Shown here: positions 3,969 to 11,667 of the stretch, in pieces
How positions within the stretch are numbered: the stretch's first letter is position 1
Layout: each line of letters opens with the position of its first letter
IMG/VR virus record: IMGVR_UViG_3300050120_000111
Location: 1 to 37,437 of that record
From: a virus
DNA: 37,437 nt
Reading direction: 5' to 3' (one strand)
Notes under the pieces: generated by a model
Databases searched by the model: none
The model's input: the letters and a program-made list of their open reading frames with translations, nothing else
What the model was told of the DNA's origin: nothing
Position numbers and translations under genes: made by a program

Positions 3969-4085
3969 ATGCAAACAACAGAAAACTTACTTAAAGATAA
4001 CCCGGTGCATAATTGCAATTCTCTCCTTTCGGATGGTGTTGATAAGCCTTTTATGTTGCCGGGCTTTATATTATGGAAATTTTAA
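3969..4085 (+). CDS. possible 38 aa peptide ahead of the HNH gene
   Basis: The 38-codon frame starts at ATG 3969 (MQTTENLLKDNPVHN) and ends LPGFILWKF with TAA at 4083-4085, overlapping the first 13 bases of the HNH gene. It may be a complete small gene, or the start of an older gene cut by arrival of the endonuclease. Nothing after the endonuclease clearly continues it. No family is recognised. Confidence 0.35.
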   Translation: MQTTENLLKDNPVHNCNSLLSDGVDKPFMLPGFILWKF

Positions 4086-4672
4086 TTGGAAATGTATTCT
4101 CTAAACTAACCGTAGTGTCCTTTAGTAGATATAAGCCAAGAAAGGGTAACTTCTGGATTTGTAAATGCGAGTGTGGTTCTATAAAAGAGGTTATGGCTAG
4201 CAATTTGATAAACAAAGGTACCAAATCGTGCGGATGTTTAAAATCAGATAAAAATAAAGGCTATTTGACCAAAACTTCGGAATACAGAAGTTGGTATAAT
4301 ATGAAAACAAGGTGTTTAAATAAAAAAACTAATGCATATATCAATTATGGAGGACGTGGTATTAATGTATGTGAAAGATGGTTAGATTTTAATAATTTTT
4401 TGCTCGATATGGGTAAAAAGCCATCATCAGATTATTCTATTGAAAGAATAGACAACAATGGTAATTATGAGCCATCTAATTGTAGGTGGGCTACTACGCA
4501 AGAACAAAATTTAAACCAACGAAGCAATTTAAATTTGCTGGTTAATGGTGTTAAATACCCATTAAAAGAATTTTGTGAACTAACTGGTATAAAAATACAT
4601 ACTTACTATAGATTTAAAAACGAATTAACAGCACAAGAAATATTTAATAAATTCAAAAAACAATCATTATGA
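4073..4672 (+). CDS. HNH homing endonuclease with N-terminal zinc/DNA-binding module (199 aa)
   Basis: The N-terminal part has CKCECG at residues 30-35 and SCGCL at 52-56, a Cys cluster typical of phage AP2/HNH-type endonucleases. Then come YRSWYNMKTRC (71-81), NYGGRGI (91-97) and CERWLDF (100-106). The core is SIERIDNNGNYEPSNC (122-137), followed by RWAT. These signatures define a widespread family of free-standing phage HNH endonucleases that cut unoccupied sites to spread their own gene. It is clearly AT-richer than its neighbours, as expected for an independent mobile gene. The stop overlaps the next start (ATGA). A C-terminal helix-turn-helix-like segment (LKEFCELTGIKIHTYYRF) may read DNA. 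Confidence 0.9.
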   Translation: MEILIGNVFSKLTVVSFSRYKPRKGNFWICKCECGSIKEVMASNLINKGTKSCGCLKSDKNKGYLTKTSEYRSWYNMKTRCLNKKTNAYINYGGRGINVCERWLDFNNFLLDMGKKPSSDYSIERIDNNGNYEPSNCRWATTQEQNLNQRSNLNLLVNGVKYPLKEFCELTGIKIHTYYRFKNELTAQEIFNKFKKQSL

Positions 4673-5474: not shown

Positions 5475-5810
5475 TTACACTTGAGGGATGACAGGACTTT
5501 CGGTAGCGGTAGTTGATACCGGTGGCGTTTCCTCTGCATTAACCACAACATTACTTCCGCCCTGAGCCTGTAAATCGGGGTTCGTAGTCGCTGATTTTGC
5601 CACAGCGGTACATACTAACCCAACGGTGACCATATAGCCTGCAAGCACCGTTAAAATGTGTGGTATAGGCACGGGAGTTGCACCAACACCCAAGATAGCA
5701 CCTCCCGTTACTCCAAGCGACATGCCGAATATAACAATCTTCTTAAAAAAGATAGGCGTTTCTGACGTTAGCCGGGCGATCAGTTGTGAAAAAAAGGATT
5801 TCTGTCCCAT
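5475..5810 (-). CDS. holin-like membrane protein (111 aa)
   Basis: Two hydrophobic segments at about residues 24-44 and 52-72 are separated by a short Pro-containing turn (TPVPIPH). A basic N-terminus precedes them and a long Ser/Thr/Glu-rich tail follows. This topology and size match phage holins, which form inner-membrane lesions that release the endolysin. The gene begins two bases after the GH25 lysozyme stop and is the last late gene before the terminator. Assignment rests on topology and context. It is not matched to a named holin family. Confidence 0.7.
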   Translation of the reverse strand: MGQKSFFSQLIARLTSETPIFFKKIVIFGMSLGVTGGAILGVGATPVPIPHILTVLAGYMVTVGLVCTAVAKSATTNPDLQAQGGSNVVVNAEETPPVSTTATESPVIPQV

Positions 5811-6442: not shown

Positions 6443-6448
6443 ATTATT

Positions 6449-6523
6449 TTAATAAACTTGTTTAGAACCATTAAATGAGCATATACACCAAAGTACTATA
6501 AATGCTAAAATAAACCATCCCAT
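6449..6523 (-). CDS. 24 aa micro-protein with one membrane segment
   Basis: The frame reads MGWFILAFIVLWCICSFNGSK and ends QVY. The first 16 residues form a hydrophobic helix followed by a short polar tail. It starts in a TAATG overlap with the preceding micro-frame and ends 6 bases before the lysozyme start. Position in the lysis cassette suggests a helper such as a pinholin regulator or tiny lysis peptide. That role is inferred. Confidence 0.45.
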   Translation of the reverse strand: MGWFILAFIVLWCICSFNGSKQVY

Positions 6524-6600
6524 TACCTTATAAATTTATAAGCCATCCAAAACGAGGCTATGCCAAAAATTATAAAAAATATTTTAACTGTTACAATCAT
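6523..6600 (-). CDS. 25 aa micro-protein with one membrane segment
   Basis: The frame reads MIVTVKIFFIIFGIASFWMA and ends YKFIR: one hydrophobic helix with a basic end. The ATG overlaps the stop of the 139 aa gene as ATGA, and the TAA overlaps the next micro-frame as TAATG. The uninterrupted overlap chain supports translation despite the very small size. Confidence 0.45.
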   Translation of the reverse strand: MIVTVKIFFIIFGIASFWMAYKFIR

Positions 6601-7016
6601 TGTACGGCGCGTATTACAATTGTTTTACCATTTCTGTCCCTATGTTCACTCACAAACGATACTTGTTTAAATATATTCTCACACTTAATCTGTATCGATC
6701 TAACCGTCCTATTAGTTGCTAAAATATCGGCCTTTAAATCAGTTTTAATATTTATTTTGTCTATACTATCTTCCCGCTTATATTCATTAAAGGCAAACGA
6801 TCCAGCATCTTGTTTTTTAGTTAATACATCTAATTTATTAGAAAGTATCTGAATATCATCTTTGGTAGCTACAGAACTCGTTATTTTACGGGCAGAAAAG
6901 CCCGCACTAAGTAATATCAAACCCCACGTAACAAGTTGCCCCCTTGTTATCTGATAAGACTTCTTTTCTATGTTCTTTATGCTTTCATGCTGCGATTGTT
7001 GTTCGTCGTGGCTCAT
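6597..7016 (-). CDS. membrane-anchored coiled-coil protein of the lysis cassette (139 aa)
   Basis: A Gln/Glu-rich N-terminus precedes a single hydrophobic segment at about residues 26-42 (GQLVTWGLILLSAGF). A long charged helical stretch with heptad character follows (DDIQILSNKLDVLTKKQD...). One TM plus periplasmic coiled coil is the layout of inner-membrane spanins, which fuse inner and outer membranes at the end of lysis. It is also seen in other phage accessory proteins. The lysis-cassette position supports a spanin-type role; no outer-membrane lipoprotein partner is obvious nearby. Confidence 0.5.
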   Translation of the reverse strand: MSHDEQQSQHESIKNIEKKSYQITRGQLVTWGLILLSAGFSARKITSSVATKDDIQILSNKLDVLTKKQDAGSFAFNEYKREDSIDKINIKTDLKADILATNRTVRSIQIKCENIFKQVSFVSEHRDRNGKTIVIRAVQ

Positions 7017-7054: not shown

Positions 7055-10000
7055 TTAATACCAAGTATTTGTTCCGCTATCGTAAACCAACATTTGAAAT
7101 GATCCAGCAGACGAAGATACAGCCCCGTCTGATACAGTACCACCTGTATATGTTATAGCTGTGATTGCTTTAGTAAAATCCATTATTACAACATCGCCGT
7201 CAACTGGAGAAGCTGGCATATTAATTGTAAGTGCAGCTATTGCTGTAGCTGGATTAATTATATTATAATATCCTACTATAAGCGTTGACGAACTACCCGT
7301 TGTCGGTGTAAATATTACGTGTAGATATTGTAGTGGCTGATTTCCCGGCAATTTCCATGATGGAGGTGTGCTGCCATTTCCACCAAATAACACCATGTTG
7401 GTACCTCCTGGAGCTAATCTTGTTGCAACTCCGCTTACCCCGCCATATATTATATCACCCTGTGATGTCATTGGGTTAGTCATATAAGATGAAGGATTAG
7501 TCGAGTTATAAGGCGTAAAGCCCAATGCCGTTGTTACCTGACCGGATGTTAACCCTGTTAATCCCGCTGCGCTCCCTGTGGTAGACAATTTTCCATTTAA
7601 TTGCGATTGTACATCACTTGTGGTTGTACCCAGATATCCTATTTGTGCTGCTGTAGTAGATGAGCTAACAATATTTTTAGAAGCATCCGATACCAATGCG
7701 GTAGATGCTGTTAAAGATGCGCTTGTCATTTGACCCGTATTATCTACCTTCCACTTGCTAACATTGCTTAATTGAAAGTCAGCAAGTAGATGTGTGCCGC
7801 TTCCCCATGTTCCAGAGGGGTTAACAAGTAGATGTGTCATCCCAGCCGTTGACGTTTGCGTACCTACCGGAGTTATAGCAAACGCAACCTGGTTAATACC
7901 CGCACCACCGGAGAAGGTGCCGGATGACGCTATGATAGCAGCCGAACTTCCTGTCTGTCCCCTCTTTTGTAGGTTTAACGTGCTTCCGGTTGATATTGCC
8001 GAAACTTCGGAAGTTAACAATCTTCCACTTGCAGACATATTCAAATCCCCTGCAGAACCCAATGATAATAATTGGGTTTTTGTACCGCCATTGGAACTAT
8101 ACCTAAAAGTTAGGGCAGAGTTTACGGGGTTGCCCTGAGATACCTCGTTTCCAACATACCAATCCGACGTATTGTCTGCCAATGTTGAGTTATTCCACCC
8201 GTGCGCACCAAATTGCATAACCGGGCTGTTTTGTTGAGTTGCCCCCGATGTTGCTGCGGTAGTATTATTAAGTATAACAAGTGGTGTGTTTGTGGTTGCT
8301 ATGCCGTTTGCCTGAAATACCTTTGCGCCAAATATGGTTTGATTTGTGGTTAGCTTAACATATTTTGCGCTTATAGCTGCACTATCAATATCCATTGTGC
8401 CAGATGAAGTTATAGGCGTATGAGAAGTGAATAATACGCCGGGCGTAATACTTGTTAAGGTTCCTGGTGTTATAAAAGAACCAACGCCACCAGTAGTAAA
8501 AGCCATTAGCTGCCCGTTAACACTGGGCAGCGCAGTTGGTACTTGTAGAATATAATTAGCACTACCTGGGTTCTGCCAACCCATATTATTTGTACTTGTA
8601 CCCCTTAAGTTTAAGGTTTGAGCGTAAACATTAGCCCAAAACGGATTGCCTGTAGTATTTACATTTTGATCTAATATCGATTGATATCTAGCATCTTCAC
8701 CAGTTTGATTATAAAAAGGCGCAAATGTACCTGGATTCCCTGTTACTGTATTCACCCATCCTAAAATTCCTGTAGATGGATTAGTGTTCCAAAATTTAGT
8801 GCCCTGATAAACTTTATACGTTGAACTTGATGGCGGCGTGGTGCGGTTATTATAAAGGTCGTTATCTTCTATATAAACATGGGTGCCGCTTACATTTATT
8901 GCCATCATATCAACATCGCCAAAGGCGTATCCATACGCTGTTGTGCTGCTTATACGCAAATAATCCATTGCTGATGCGCCCCCGGTTGATGCTTGTACCG
9001 ATATTGCATTAGCCATCCTGGAACCGCCAGTTTCATATAAAGAGTTATGCTCTATTGTATAATGCGGATTGCCGGAATAGATATTTATTTCCCTTAGGTT
9101 AGAATTGTTCCAGCCGTTATCATGTACGATATTGTTACGCATTGTAACATATTTGGGGGATGTTGTTTGGTCTGAATTAACAGGCTGAACCCCTATGCCA
9201 AATTCATTGAACCCTGTTATCGTATTATCGTTAATATCTAAATGTTGGAATTGCCCCTGAACAAAAATACCGCTTGCAAAGTTAGTACCACCGGGATTGT
9301 TTGTCGTGCTGTCGGCGTTTAAAACGTTACCTATTATTTTTGTGTTTAGATCAACTTGGTATGGGCTGGTAATAATAGCTACGATACCCGCTATAGGAGC
9401 ACGGTAACTCGTATCATTCTTATAGGTATTTTCAGCCATATTATTAGCTATCTCCGACCCGTTTACGGTTAACACACTAACATTATCCCCATTGGCAAAG
9501 GGGTTGTAATATATGGCAGCATTAACAGCGTTGAGGGCAAACGAAAGGGGTGTATTAGCTGTTTTCTTGGCTATCCCCCAATTGTGCATTTTATTATTTG
9601 CTATAAGCTGGTTGCTACCATAAATAACTATGGGCGTATAGTAGGTTTCTGCTATACGGTTGCCTATAAATTGCAAATCTTTTGATATATTTAAGAAAGA
9701 AGTTTCACCAAAATTAGCGAACCCGTAATAGTTTAAAGTAAAATCATTGCTTGATATTATTATCTTACCTGATCCAGCAGCCTCTCCTTCATTCATTGCA
9801 CCATAAATAAATTTAGATGCTATACAATTGGTCATTATTGCACCGGATGACTTTGGGCCTGTGGCATTATAGGAACCCATTGCAAATTGAAACCCTATAT
9901 TTCCGCTTCCGACAATGTTTGTACCTATCAATGCGCCCGGCCATGTTCCTAACGTTCCCGTAGCTATACACTTATCAATAATATAATTTCCTATTGGCCC

Positions 10001-11041
10001 TGTATAGGTGATGCCCGAAAGATTAGAGCCGGCAAATGAAAATGCATTACCATTATAAACTAACGCTGATGTAGGTGCCGAAGTTACAAGTCCATCAACC
10101 GTTGTATTGCTAACTTTAATATTATAACTCATCAATAAAACCACACCGCCGTTCTTGGCATTCTTAATGTACACATTGGAAATTTCCCCGTTATCAACCC
10201 CTGCTAAAGAAACTACGGAATTAACCCACCCATACCATGATGGTGTAAGTATTCTAACCCCGTTGGGCATTATATTGGGTAGATTAGAGCAGTCAATTCC
10301 AATATTTCTTATATTGATATTGCCGATTCTTTTCGTCCCTAAATAGTCTGTTTGTGGATTGCCCCGTATGGTAGAAACAAGTATTGTTGAATCAGTAGTA
10401 AACGCAGGAATAATAAGTGACCCCATACCATCACCAGAAAGTGTAACATTTGGATATGGAATCGGTATTGTCGATGTGGTTTTATATCTTCCGGTCGGAA
10501 GGTAAACTTCCCCACCACCCGACAGTGAGTGAGCCCACGCCTGCGCTGCTGCTATATAGGTATGTACGCTAACGGTGTTTGTAGAATCTGCACCAAACCA
10601 TAAAACATTTATCTTTCCTGAATAGATACGGTTAAATCTTCCTGTAGTTATTGAAGTAGGTTTTATGATCGTACCTGTATTATCTGCTCTGGTATCGGTT
10701 GCATTCCAATACCAGTTACCGCCTCCAAAATCTTTTGTTTGATAAATGACAGTCGCTTGCGGGTTTGTGATAGCCCGTAGCCCAGCGACAGTGGTCGTGA
10801 TAGACGTACTGTTAGCCAAGTTTCTTTTCATTTGAACGCTATCCACCCATTGGCGCCATTGCAATGTTGCGCCATTACCCACACTTCCCCACATATTGTT
10901 GGTAGTTGGCTCTAAATAGGTAGCGTTGGTATTTTGCTTAACAGGGTTAACCGGCGATTGTGCCACTAAAATCTCTGCACACCCCGAGATCATGCAGATG
11001 ATCAGTAATATTATATTCTTTATCTTTTTCATATCAATCAT
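7055..11041 (-). CDS. tailspike/tail fibre with beta-helix domain and N-terminal signal peptide (about 1328 aa)
   Basis: The start chosen is the ATG at 11041, which overlaps the upstream TGA (ATGA). An ATG at 11032 gives MKKIKNIILLIICM directly. The N-terminus looks like a Bacteroidota signal peptide ending LVAQS, with a possible lipobox ISGC. GGGEVYLPTGRYKTTS introduces a pectate-lyase-type right-handed beta-helix rich in Asn turns, as in polysaccharide-degrading tailspikes. The last third has tail-fibre-like repeats, including QGDIIYGGVSGVATRLAPG, a stretch typical of Bacteroidota phage fibres, and a Gly/Ser-rich tip. The likely role is binding and perhaps cutting surface polysaccharide. 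No catalytic residues can be assigned. Confidence 0.75.
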   Translation of the reverse strand: MIDMKKIKNIILLIICMISGCAEILVAQSPVNPVKQNTNATYLEPTTNNMWGSVGNGATLQWRQWVDSVQMKRNLANSTSITTTVAGLRAITNPQATVIYQTKDFGGGNWYWNATDTRADNTGTIIKPTSITTGRFNRIYSGKINVLWFGADSTNTVSVHTYIAAAQAWAHSLSGGGEVYLPTGRYKTTSTIPIPYPNVTLSGDGMGSLIIPAFTTDSTILVSTIRGNPQTDYLGTKRIGNINIRNIGIDCSNLPNIMPNGVRILTPSWYGWVNSVVSLAGVDNGEISNVYIKNAKNGGVVLLMSYNIKVSNTTVDGLVTSAPTSALVYNGNAFSFAGSNLSGITYTGPIGNYIIDKCIATGTLGTWPGALIGTNIVGSGNIGFQFAMGSYNATGPKSSGAIMTNCIASKFIYGAMNEGEAAGSGKIIISSNDFTLNYYGFANFGETSFLNISKDLQFIGNRIAETYYTPIVIYGSNQLIANNKMHNWGIAKKTANTPLSFALNAVNAAIYYNPFANGDNVSVLTVNGSEIANNMAENTYKNDTSYRAPIAGIVAIITSPYQVDLNTKIIGNVLNADSTTNNPGGTNFASGIFVQGQFQHLDINDNTITGFNEFGIGVQPVNSDQTTSPKYVTMRNNIVHDNGWNNSNLREINIYSGNPHYTIEHNSLYETGGSRMANAISVQASTGGASAMDYLRISSTTAYGYAFGDVDMMAINVSGTHVYIEDNDLYNNRTTPPSSSTYKVYQGTKFWNTNPSTGILGWVNTVTGNPGTFAPFYNQTGEDARYQSILDQNVNTTGNPFWANVYAQTLNLRGTSTNNMGWQNPGSANYILQVPTALPSVNGQLMAFTTGGVGSFITPGTLTSITPGVLFTSHTPITSSGTMDIDSAAISAKYVKLTTNQTIFGAKVFQANGIATTNTPLVILNNTTAATSGATQQNSPVMQFGAHGWNNSTLADNTSDWYVGNEVSQGNPVNSALTFRYSSNGGTKTQLLSLGSAGDLNMSASGRLLTSEVSAISTGSTLNLQKRGQTGSSAAIIASSGTFSGGAGINQVAFAITPVGTQTSTAGMTHLLVNPSGTWGSGTHLLADFQLSNVSKWKVDNTGQMTSASLTASTALVSDASKNIVSSSTTAAQIGYLGTTTSDVQSQLNGKLSTTGSAAGLTGLTSGQVTTALGFTPYNSTNPSSYMTNPMTSQGDIIYGGVSGVATRLAPGGTNMVLFGGNGSTPPSWKLPGNQPLQYLHVIFTPTTGSSSTLIVGYYNIINPATAIAALTINMPASPVDGDVVIMDFTKAITAITYTGGTVSDGAVSSSAGSFQMLVYDSGTNTWY

Positions 11042-11667
11042 TGTTGAACACCCGCGAGCATTATAAATCCAGTTGTTGCCGCACCATAAGTCCATGTTAC
11101 CGAAGAATAACCGCTTGTCGGGTCACCATTAACCACATAATCAATAGCGGGTGACGTACCAAAGTCAGGATAAGCGGGGTCGCTTCCATTGTCTACATAT
11201 ATCTGGCAAACCAAAGGTGTTTTACCGTATCTAAGTGAATAATTTGCCACATAACTTGATAACGTTATCGTAGTTTGATTGGTGAATGGTATCGTTGTTT
11301 CATTGATAACGCTTCCCTGATTGATAATATTAACGACCGTTCCTGGTATTTGAGCGTTCGGATTAACATTGCCGCCAAACTGCCCATACACATCAAACTG
11401 CTTGGTCTTATTTATTAAAGCCCCCACCAATTCGTAAAATTCAGTTTCATAGGTAGACGGCGTTGAACTAAAGGTTACAAACTGTTCCTCGTTGCCAATT
11501 ACGTTAAAAAGGGTATAAATATCATACTGCAGGTCTTTGTACGTTTGGTAGACAGAACTGCCTAAATAGTAAAATCCGTTTTCTATTGACTGCGATATTT
11601 CATACATAGCCACCTGGGCCCTAAGTTGAGCTGCATTAACCTGAACCTGTGTGTATAGAATAGCCAC
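11038..11667 (-). CDS. minor tail/virion protein (209 aa)
   Basis: The helical N-terminal half (QVQVNAAQLRAQVAMYEISQ, then ENGFYYLGSSVYQTYKDLQYD) is followed by a beta-rich, Thr/Asn/Gly-rich half. It lies immediately before the tailspike and overlaps its start, and it overlaps the 174 aa gene by one base at the other end. A linker between tail and spike would fit the position. No family is recognised, and the virion assignment is by context. Confidence 0.6.
   Translation of the reverse strand: MAILYTQVQVNAAQLRAQVAMYEISQSIENGFYYLGSSVYQTYKDLQYDIYTLFNVIGNEEQFVTFSSTPSTYETEFYELVGALINKTKQFDVYGQFGGNVNPNAQIPGTVVNIINQGSVINETTIPFTNQTTITLSSYVANYSLRYGKTPLVCQIYVDNGSDPAYPDFGTSPAIDYVVNGDPTSGYSSVTWTYGAATTGFIMLAGVQQ

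Follow-up and report, generated by a model that had tools for sequence, protein, structure and literature searches.

The lysis region of the window

The DNA analysed here (the window) is the whole 37.4-kb stretch of an uncultured virus record, G000. On its minus strand, the genes of the lysis region follow one another in the order tail-fibre-like protein, 139-aa protein, P1, P2, GH25 lysozyme and 111-aa protein, P1 and P2 being the two micro-ORFs under study:

7055..11095, minus strand: tail-fibre-like protein; the 88 aa at its C-terminus form a domain conserved among relatives, a landmark for where the lysis region starts
6597..7016, minus strand: 139-aa protein with an N-terminal TM helix, a helical stalk and a C-terminal hairpin-like end (low-confidence model)
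6523..6600, minus strand: P1, 25 aa, MIVTVKIFFIIFGIASFWMAYKFIR, single helix; ATGA overlap with the 139-aa gene
6449..6523, minus strand: P2, 24 aa, MGWFILAFIVLWCICSFNGSKQVY, single helix; TAATG overlap with P1
5813..6442, minus strand: GH25 lysozyme (endolysin), 209 aa; PF01183, E=4e-28; phrog_291 endolysin, 1.1e-29
5475..5810, minus strand: 111-aa protein with two hydrophobic segments, in the place of the relatives' 93-104 aa holin-like protein

An earlier, sequence-only reading of this DNA had pointed to two overlapping ORFs of 25 and 24 aa at 6449-6600, and these are present as described on the minus strand. The ATG of P1 overlaps the TGA of the 139-aa ORF (ATGA), and the ATG of P2 overlaps the TAA of P1 (TAATG); the earlier description, which could be taken to include an overlap with the lysozyme as well, holds for these two links, while 6 nt (6443-6448) lie between the P2 stop and the GH25 ATG. 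Kyte-Doolittle hydropathy bears out one hydrophobic helix per peptide, the 16-residue maxima being 2.38 and 2.34, and at most about nine residues lie outside the helix in each. ORFs of this size are discarded by standard gene finders. Both peptides combine the two elements of the holin criterion, at least one TM segment and a gene in the lysis cassette. Neither matches a Pfam or NCBIfam family, known holin families included, although such a failure counts little against holin identity, holins being very diverse; the only PHROG match is that of P1 to phrog_36757, of unknown function, at a marginal E of 0.065.

The catalytic domain of the GH25 lysozyme begins at residue 8, and no hydrophobic N-terminus, signal, SAR or anchor segment is visible. 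An endolysin of this kind, lacking signal or anchor segment, should by established phage biology need a holin, and a main holin is therefore likely to be present in the window phage. The candidate is the 111-aa protein, which has no family match and no detectable similarity to the holin profile of the relatives, most of which carry a two-TM, holin-like gene of 93-104 aa after the endolysin. Homologues of the 139-aa protein occur in L120 and L102 (25-26% identity) and, more distantly, in L095, and its AlphaFold model is of low confidence (pLDDT 56). The TM/coil proteins of the window (6597-7016), L095, L098, L102 and L103 have in common a C-terminal end resembling F-T-E-R...I-P-V-K, modelled with low confidence as a beta hairpin, and form a candidate i-spanin-like or tail-related family. 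Elsewhere in the window, the plus strand carries a 199-aa ORF (4073-4672) with relatives in L034 (52% over 84 aa) and L012 (31% over 165 aa), which by eye resembles a homing-type HNH protein.

Host and virus relatives

The portal matches listed are phages of Flavobacterium, Cellulophaga and Maribacter plus one Caudoviricetes record, at about 22% identity, and in the relatives Bacteroidota-type promoters (TTG, 17-23 nt, TANNTTTG-like) stand directly 5' of several genes; on these two grounds the host is probably a member of the Bacteroidota. Searches of isolated phages with the capsid, with the window DNA and with the neighbouring 139-aa, 118-aa and 69-aa proteins gave no match. A pattern search with the 139-aa protein found no relative among viral and genome contigs, a GH25 search of genome contigs returned only distant Rhizobiales enzymes, and the TM/coil alignment used as a query added no virus. 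The Flavobacterium elemo phage, which is annotated and whose portal is 22% identical, has no annotated lysis gene within a 49-kb stretch. Relatives were instead collected by capsid, tail-fibre C-terminus and holin searches, yielding about 20 distinct contigs with a related lysis region, among which obvious duplicates were merged and some contigs may still represent one virus.

What the window itself can say

A filter requiring ATG starts, an overlap of 4 or 1 nt, lengths of 20-45 aa and 16-residue Kyte-Doolittle maxima of at least 2.0 in both members, its thresholds chosen after the P1/P2 pair had been seen, passes P1/P2 as the sole pair on either strand of the window. Coupled hydrophobic pairs appeared in 0 of 60 dinucleotide-shuffled windows and in 0 of 20,000 shuffles of the 158-nt gap, and coupled pairs regardless of hydropathy in 19 of 50,000 gap shuffles. 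Hydropathy by itself is weak evidence in this gap, since T makes up 44% of it and, at such a composition, about 10% of random open frames would equal each peptide in hydrophobicity. Given the post hoc thresholds and the weakness of hydropathy taken alone, the independent weight rests on the relatives. A structured-RNA explanation of the gap was dropped, folding being no better than in shuffles (z=+0.87).

No close relative of P1 and P2 themselves was found among the viruses searched. When both peptides were run by tblastn against all loci, only weak matches resulted; these pointed to a 24-aa ORF of G004, the best match to the window peptides (p about 0.005-0.014 before correction). A W-x-A-[YF] motif of several peptides was set aside, having been chosen post hoc and giving p=0.24, not significant, in the comparison of the window with G016.

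Micro-ORFs in the cassettes of relatives

Coupled or abutting pairs of single-helix ORFs of 24-40 aa lie in the lysis regions of seven viruses, the window included. With a fixed filter slightly looser than that used on the window, the fetched relatives yield seven further distinct pairs clear of longer ORFs, and just one that runs antisense to a gene. Of the seven clear pairs, five belong to lysis regions, those of G001, G012, G015, G016 and, with less certainty, G022. By inspection, at least one single-helix micro-ORF is present in 15 of 20 cassettes, a count that includes ORFs reached by following weak matches and is a description, not a statistic. The micro-ORFs of the relatives are as follows:

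G012: 27+31 aa and 23 aa
G015: 25+24 aa, 3' of the holin
G001: 26+29 aa between a tail protein and GH25, an interval that also holds an inserted methyltransferase
G016: 26+40 aa and 28 aa
G022: 36+36 aa; lysis assignment less certain, no endolysin domain recognised
L119: 31+27 aa, abutting, 1-nt gap
L124: 26, 48 and 22 aa in an ATGA chain
L123: 31 and 25 aa, the 25-aa ORF running by ATGA into GH25
L118: 28 aa, ATGA at both ends, including into a 153-aa gene
L116: 31 aa, ATGA after the holin
G004 (L014): 24 aa, abutting the holin-like gene
G018 (L112): 25 aa, 1-nt overlap into a 163-aa gene
G019: 41 aa
G023: 40 and 27 aa

The arrangement in G012 repeats that of the window, with a TM/coil gene resembling the 139-aa one followed by ATGA, 27 aa, ATGA and 31 aa. 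Inspection of the cassettes of G017, G021, L120, L121 and L122 found no micro-ORF. In L120 the 139-aa homologue is followed directly by GH25; the micro-ORFs are thus accessory, gained and lost. Adjacent or ATGA-coupled single-helix pairs also occur outside the lysis region, in L032 (8609-8814) and L040 (13962-14206); coupled small TM pairs thus cluster at lysis genes and are not exclusive to them, and those outside may have other uses too.

Promoters, homology and constraint

In both G001 and G023 a promoter of the form TTG-N-TANNTTTA stands close to a micro-ORF: between its end and the ATG of the G001 pair, or of the 27-aa ORF of G023, there are 4-5 nt. The G001 lysozyme shows this spacing too, and the chance of such a placement is about 0.003 in each case. 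A GC-rich stretch resembling a hairpin comes after the G001 pair. Most micropeptide sequences do not align with each other. The second peptide of G001 and the first of L119 are clearly homologous (score 100), and class-preserving shuffles gave p values of 0.0003 to 0.002 for L124 P1 with L123 P1, G022 P1 with L123 P2, G012 P3 with G018, and G015 P2 with L124 P3, values that call for some caution with about 325 comparisons made. The G001/L119 homologues differ at 20 nt, with nine aa changes and no stop, whereas random placement of 20 differences gives 12.6 aa changes and introduces a stop in 65% of trials; the probability of a BLOSUM score at least as high, given no stop, is 0.004. Judged by these substitutions, the comparison shows coding constraint on one pair of homologues, in relatives and not in the window peptides.

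A proposed role in the timing of lysis

Recurrence, promoters, homology and constraint in the relatives make P1 and P2 look real, and there is a high probability that they are a genuine, overlooked gene pair. The suggestion that lysis-cassette genes had been missed here is well supported by the recurrent pairs, the two upstream promoters and the one constrained homologous pair; the lysis-timing role proposed along with it is the most likely one, and what speaks for it is position. Our main reading, to which we give a probability of roughly one half, is that P1 and P2 are genuine genes of the lysis cassette, coupled in translation, whose single-span products lie in the inner membrane and most likely act as accessory lysis-timing factors. 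Within this reading each could be a holin, an antiholin or a depolariser; for an antiholin, which would bind its holin and hold back its action, what speaks is position. We infer that both are translated in the window phage, enter the membrane and affect the timing of lysis. Each peptide would insert in the inner membrane as a single helix and there form assemblies, with further copies of itself, with the other peptide or with the main holin, that advance or delay membrane opening or depolarisation, so that the signal-less GH25 lysozyme reaches the wall; the start/stop overlaps would hold P1, P2 and the 139-aa protein in a fixed ratio. An accessory role fits gain and loss, as L120 joins the 139-aa homologue directly to GH25. 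Against it, a two-TM holin-like gene is already present in most cassettes, and a second function is not required. A broader reading, which we hold tentatively and rate clearly below an even chance, is that in one lineage of phages, probably of Bacteroidota, lysis is under the control of paired single-helix micropeptides, start/stop-coupled and about 25 residues long, which have been exchanged time and again without loss of their position or pairing; such peptides would be far smaller than described holins or antiholins.

The peptides might instead be real membrane proteins of a late operon that act elsewhere, for example in superinfection exclusion or by modification of a membrane complex of the host, a role that the host's own small single-span peptides play. 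Patchy presence and fast divergence suit such a role, as do the G001 pair, a separate promoter-led unit beside an inserted methyltransferase gene, and the similar coupled TM pairs beyond the lysis region in L032 and L040; the many cassettes in which micro-ORFs contact endolysin or holin genes, often by start/stop overlap, weigh against it, and we regard it as unlikely, at perhaps one chance in a few. A smaller share of the probability goes to the view that P1 and P2 trigger lysis on their own, as micro-holins or depolarising peptides comparable to pinholins or type I toxin peptides. Known membrane-depolarising peptides resemble P1 and P2 in size and hydrophobicity, and the position immediately 5' of the endolysin is a frequent holin site. 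Relatives without micro-ORFs nevertheless retain the two-TM holin-like gene, and small holes or depolarisation alone should not release a GH25 enzyme without visible SAR or signal, so this explanation seems improbable beside an accessory role in timing.

That translation and not its product matters, the ORFs serving as coupling spacers that set lysozyme expression, would account for the tight start/stop overlaps, and hydrophobic peptides come cheaply in T-rich DNA. We think it quite improbable, because amino-acid sequence is kept between viruses in the homologous micropeptides, the G001 micro-ORFs have their own promoter and no coupled downstream gene, those of G015 and L116 come after the holin, and the RNA structure of the gap is not unusual. 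Chance ORFs in AT-rich DNA, conceivable for frames so short in a T-rich gap, sit badly with the shuffle results, the recurrence in relatives and the promoters, and are very improbable. As for the tiny spanin-like partners that the sequence-only reading had envisaged, a TM/coil protein that may itself be i-spanin-like lies nearby, and P1 and P2 are, like Rz/Rz1-type spanins, small adjacent overlapping genes of a lysis cassette; they differ in having neither lipobox nor periplasmic domain (PMC6139136). The periplasmic parts of known two-component spanins add up to 62 residues or more (PMC6139136), as against 24 + 25 aa in total here, mostly helix. No lipobox-like motif occurs in P1 or P2, and one weak match was found among 26 micropeptides. 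A two-component spanin, whose o-spanin would carry the lipobox, was accordingly rejected, and the probability that P1 and P2 are spanin parts is close to nil. A colicin-type lysis lipoprotein was likewise rejected, neither peptide having a signal peptide with lipobox.

Comparison with known systems

Small TM proteins in lysis cassettes are known; what sets the present ones apart is size, pairing and recurrence. In actinobacteriophage cassettes several small TM genes stand beside the endolysin, some with overlapping frames, and these multiple holin-like genes adjoining the endolysin recall the window region (PMC9671378, PMC13056207); two distinct holin-like proteins regulate lysis in F1 mycobacteriophages. 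The actinobacteriophage proteins are larger (LysF1a, 88 aa), whereas the present ones are usually of 22-31 aa, with a single helix and in paired micro-ORFs, apparently in Bacteroidota-specific phages. The Sgl proteins of ssRNA phages are likewise very small, fast-evolving and mostly unannotated, have a TM segment and emerge from the same kind of search, but in an RNA phage, which has no endolysin, Sgl is sufficient for host lysis, whereas P1 and P2 belong to a dsDNA phage with a lysozyme and a holin-like gene (PMC7693330). The catalogue of Fremin et al. 2022, as cited in PMC11323111, also concerns small phage genes missed by standard annotation; the present case differs as one particular coupled pair linked to the lysis region throughout a set of related viruses.

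If P1 and P2 are translated and affect lysis, they would be among the smallest lysis proteins known and would offer a minimal system for single-helix control of membrane opening. To our knowledge, lysis by Bacteroidota phages is little studied. The recurrence suggests a search rule: the immediate surroundings of endolysin or holin genes can be scanned for coupled ORFs of 20-40 codons that encode hydrophobic peptides.

Other features of the related lysis regions

In L012 (3514-4581) and L111 (8285-8605) the micro-ORF pair and the endolysin are separated by an insert that a 12-nt inverted repeat (CAACCACGATTA / TAATCGTGGTTG) surrounds; the repeat is absent from the window and all other fetched viruses. 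The inserted DNA carries a C-5 cytosine methyltransferase (PF00145) on the reverse strand in L012 and is a short stretch in L111. The lysis region of G012 contains a secreted DNA/RNA non-specific endonuclease (L095, 6745-7416; PF01223, E=1.9e-8 on the identical L034 gene), and L120, L122 and L116 have secreted proteins of about 190-200 aa that by eye resemble it. Finally, four tRNA genes (2 Leu, 2 Ser; L014, 3303-3638) lie immediately 5' of the micro-ORF and holin-like gene of G004.
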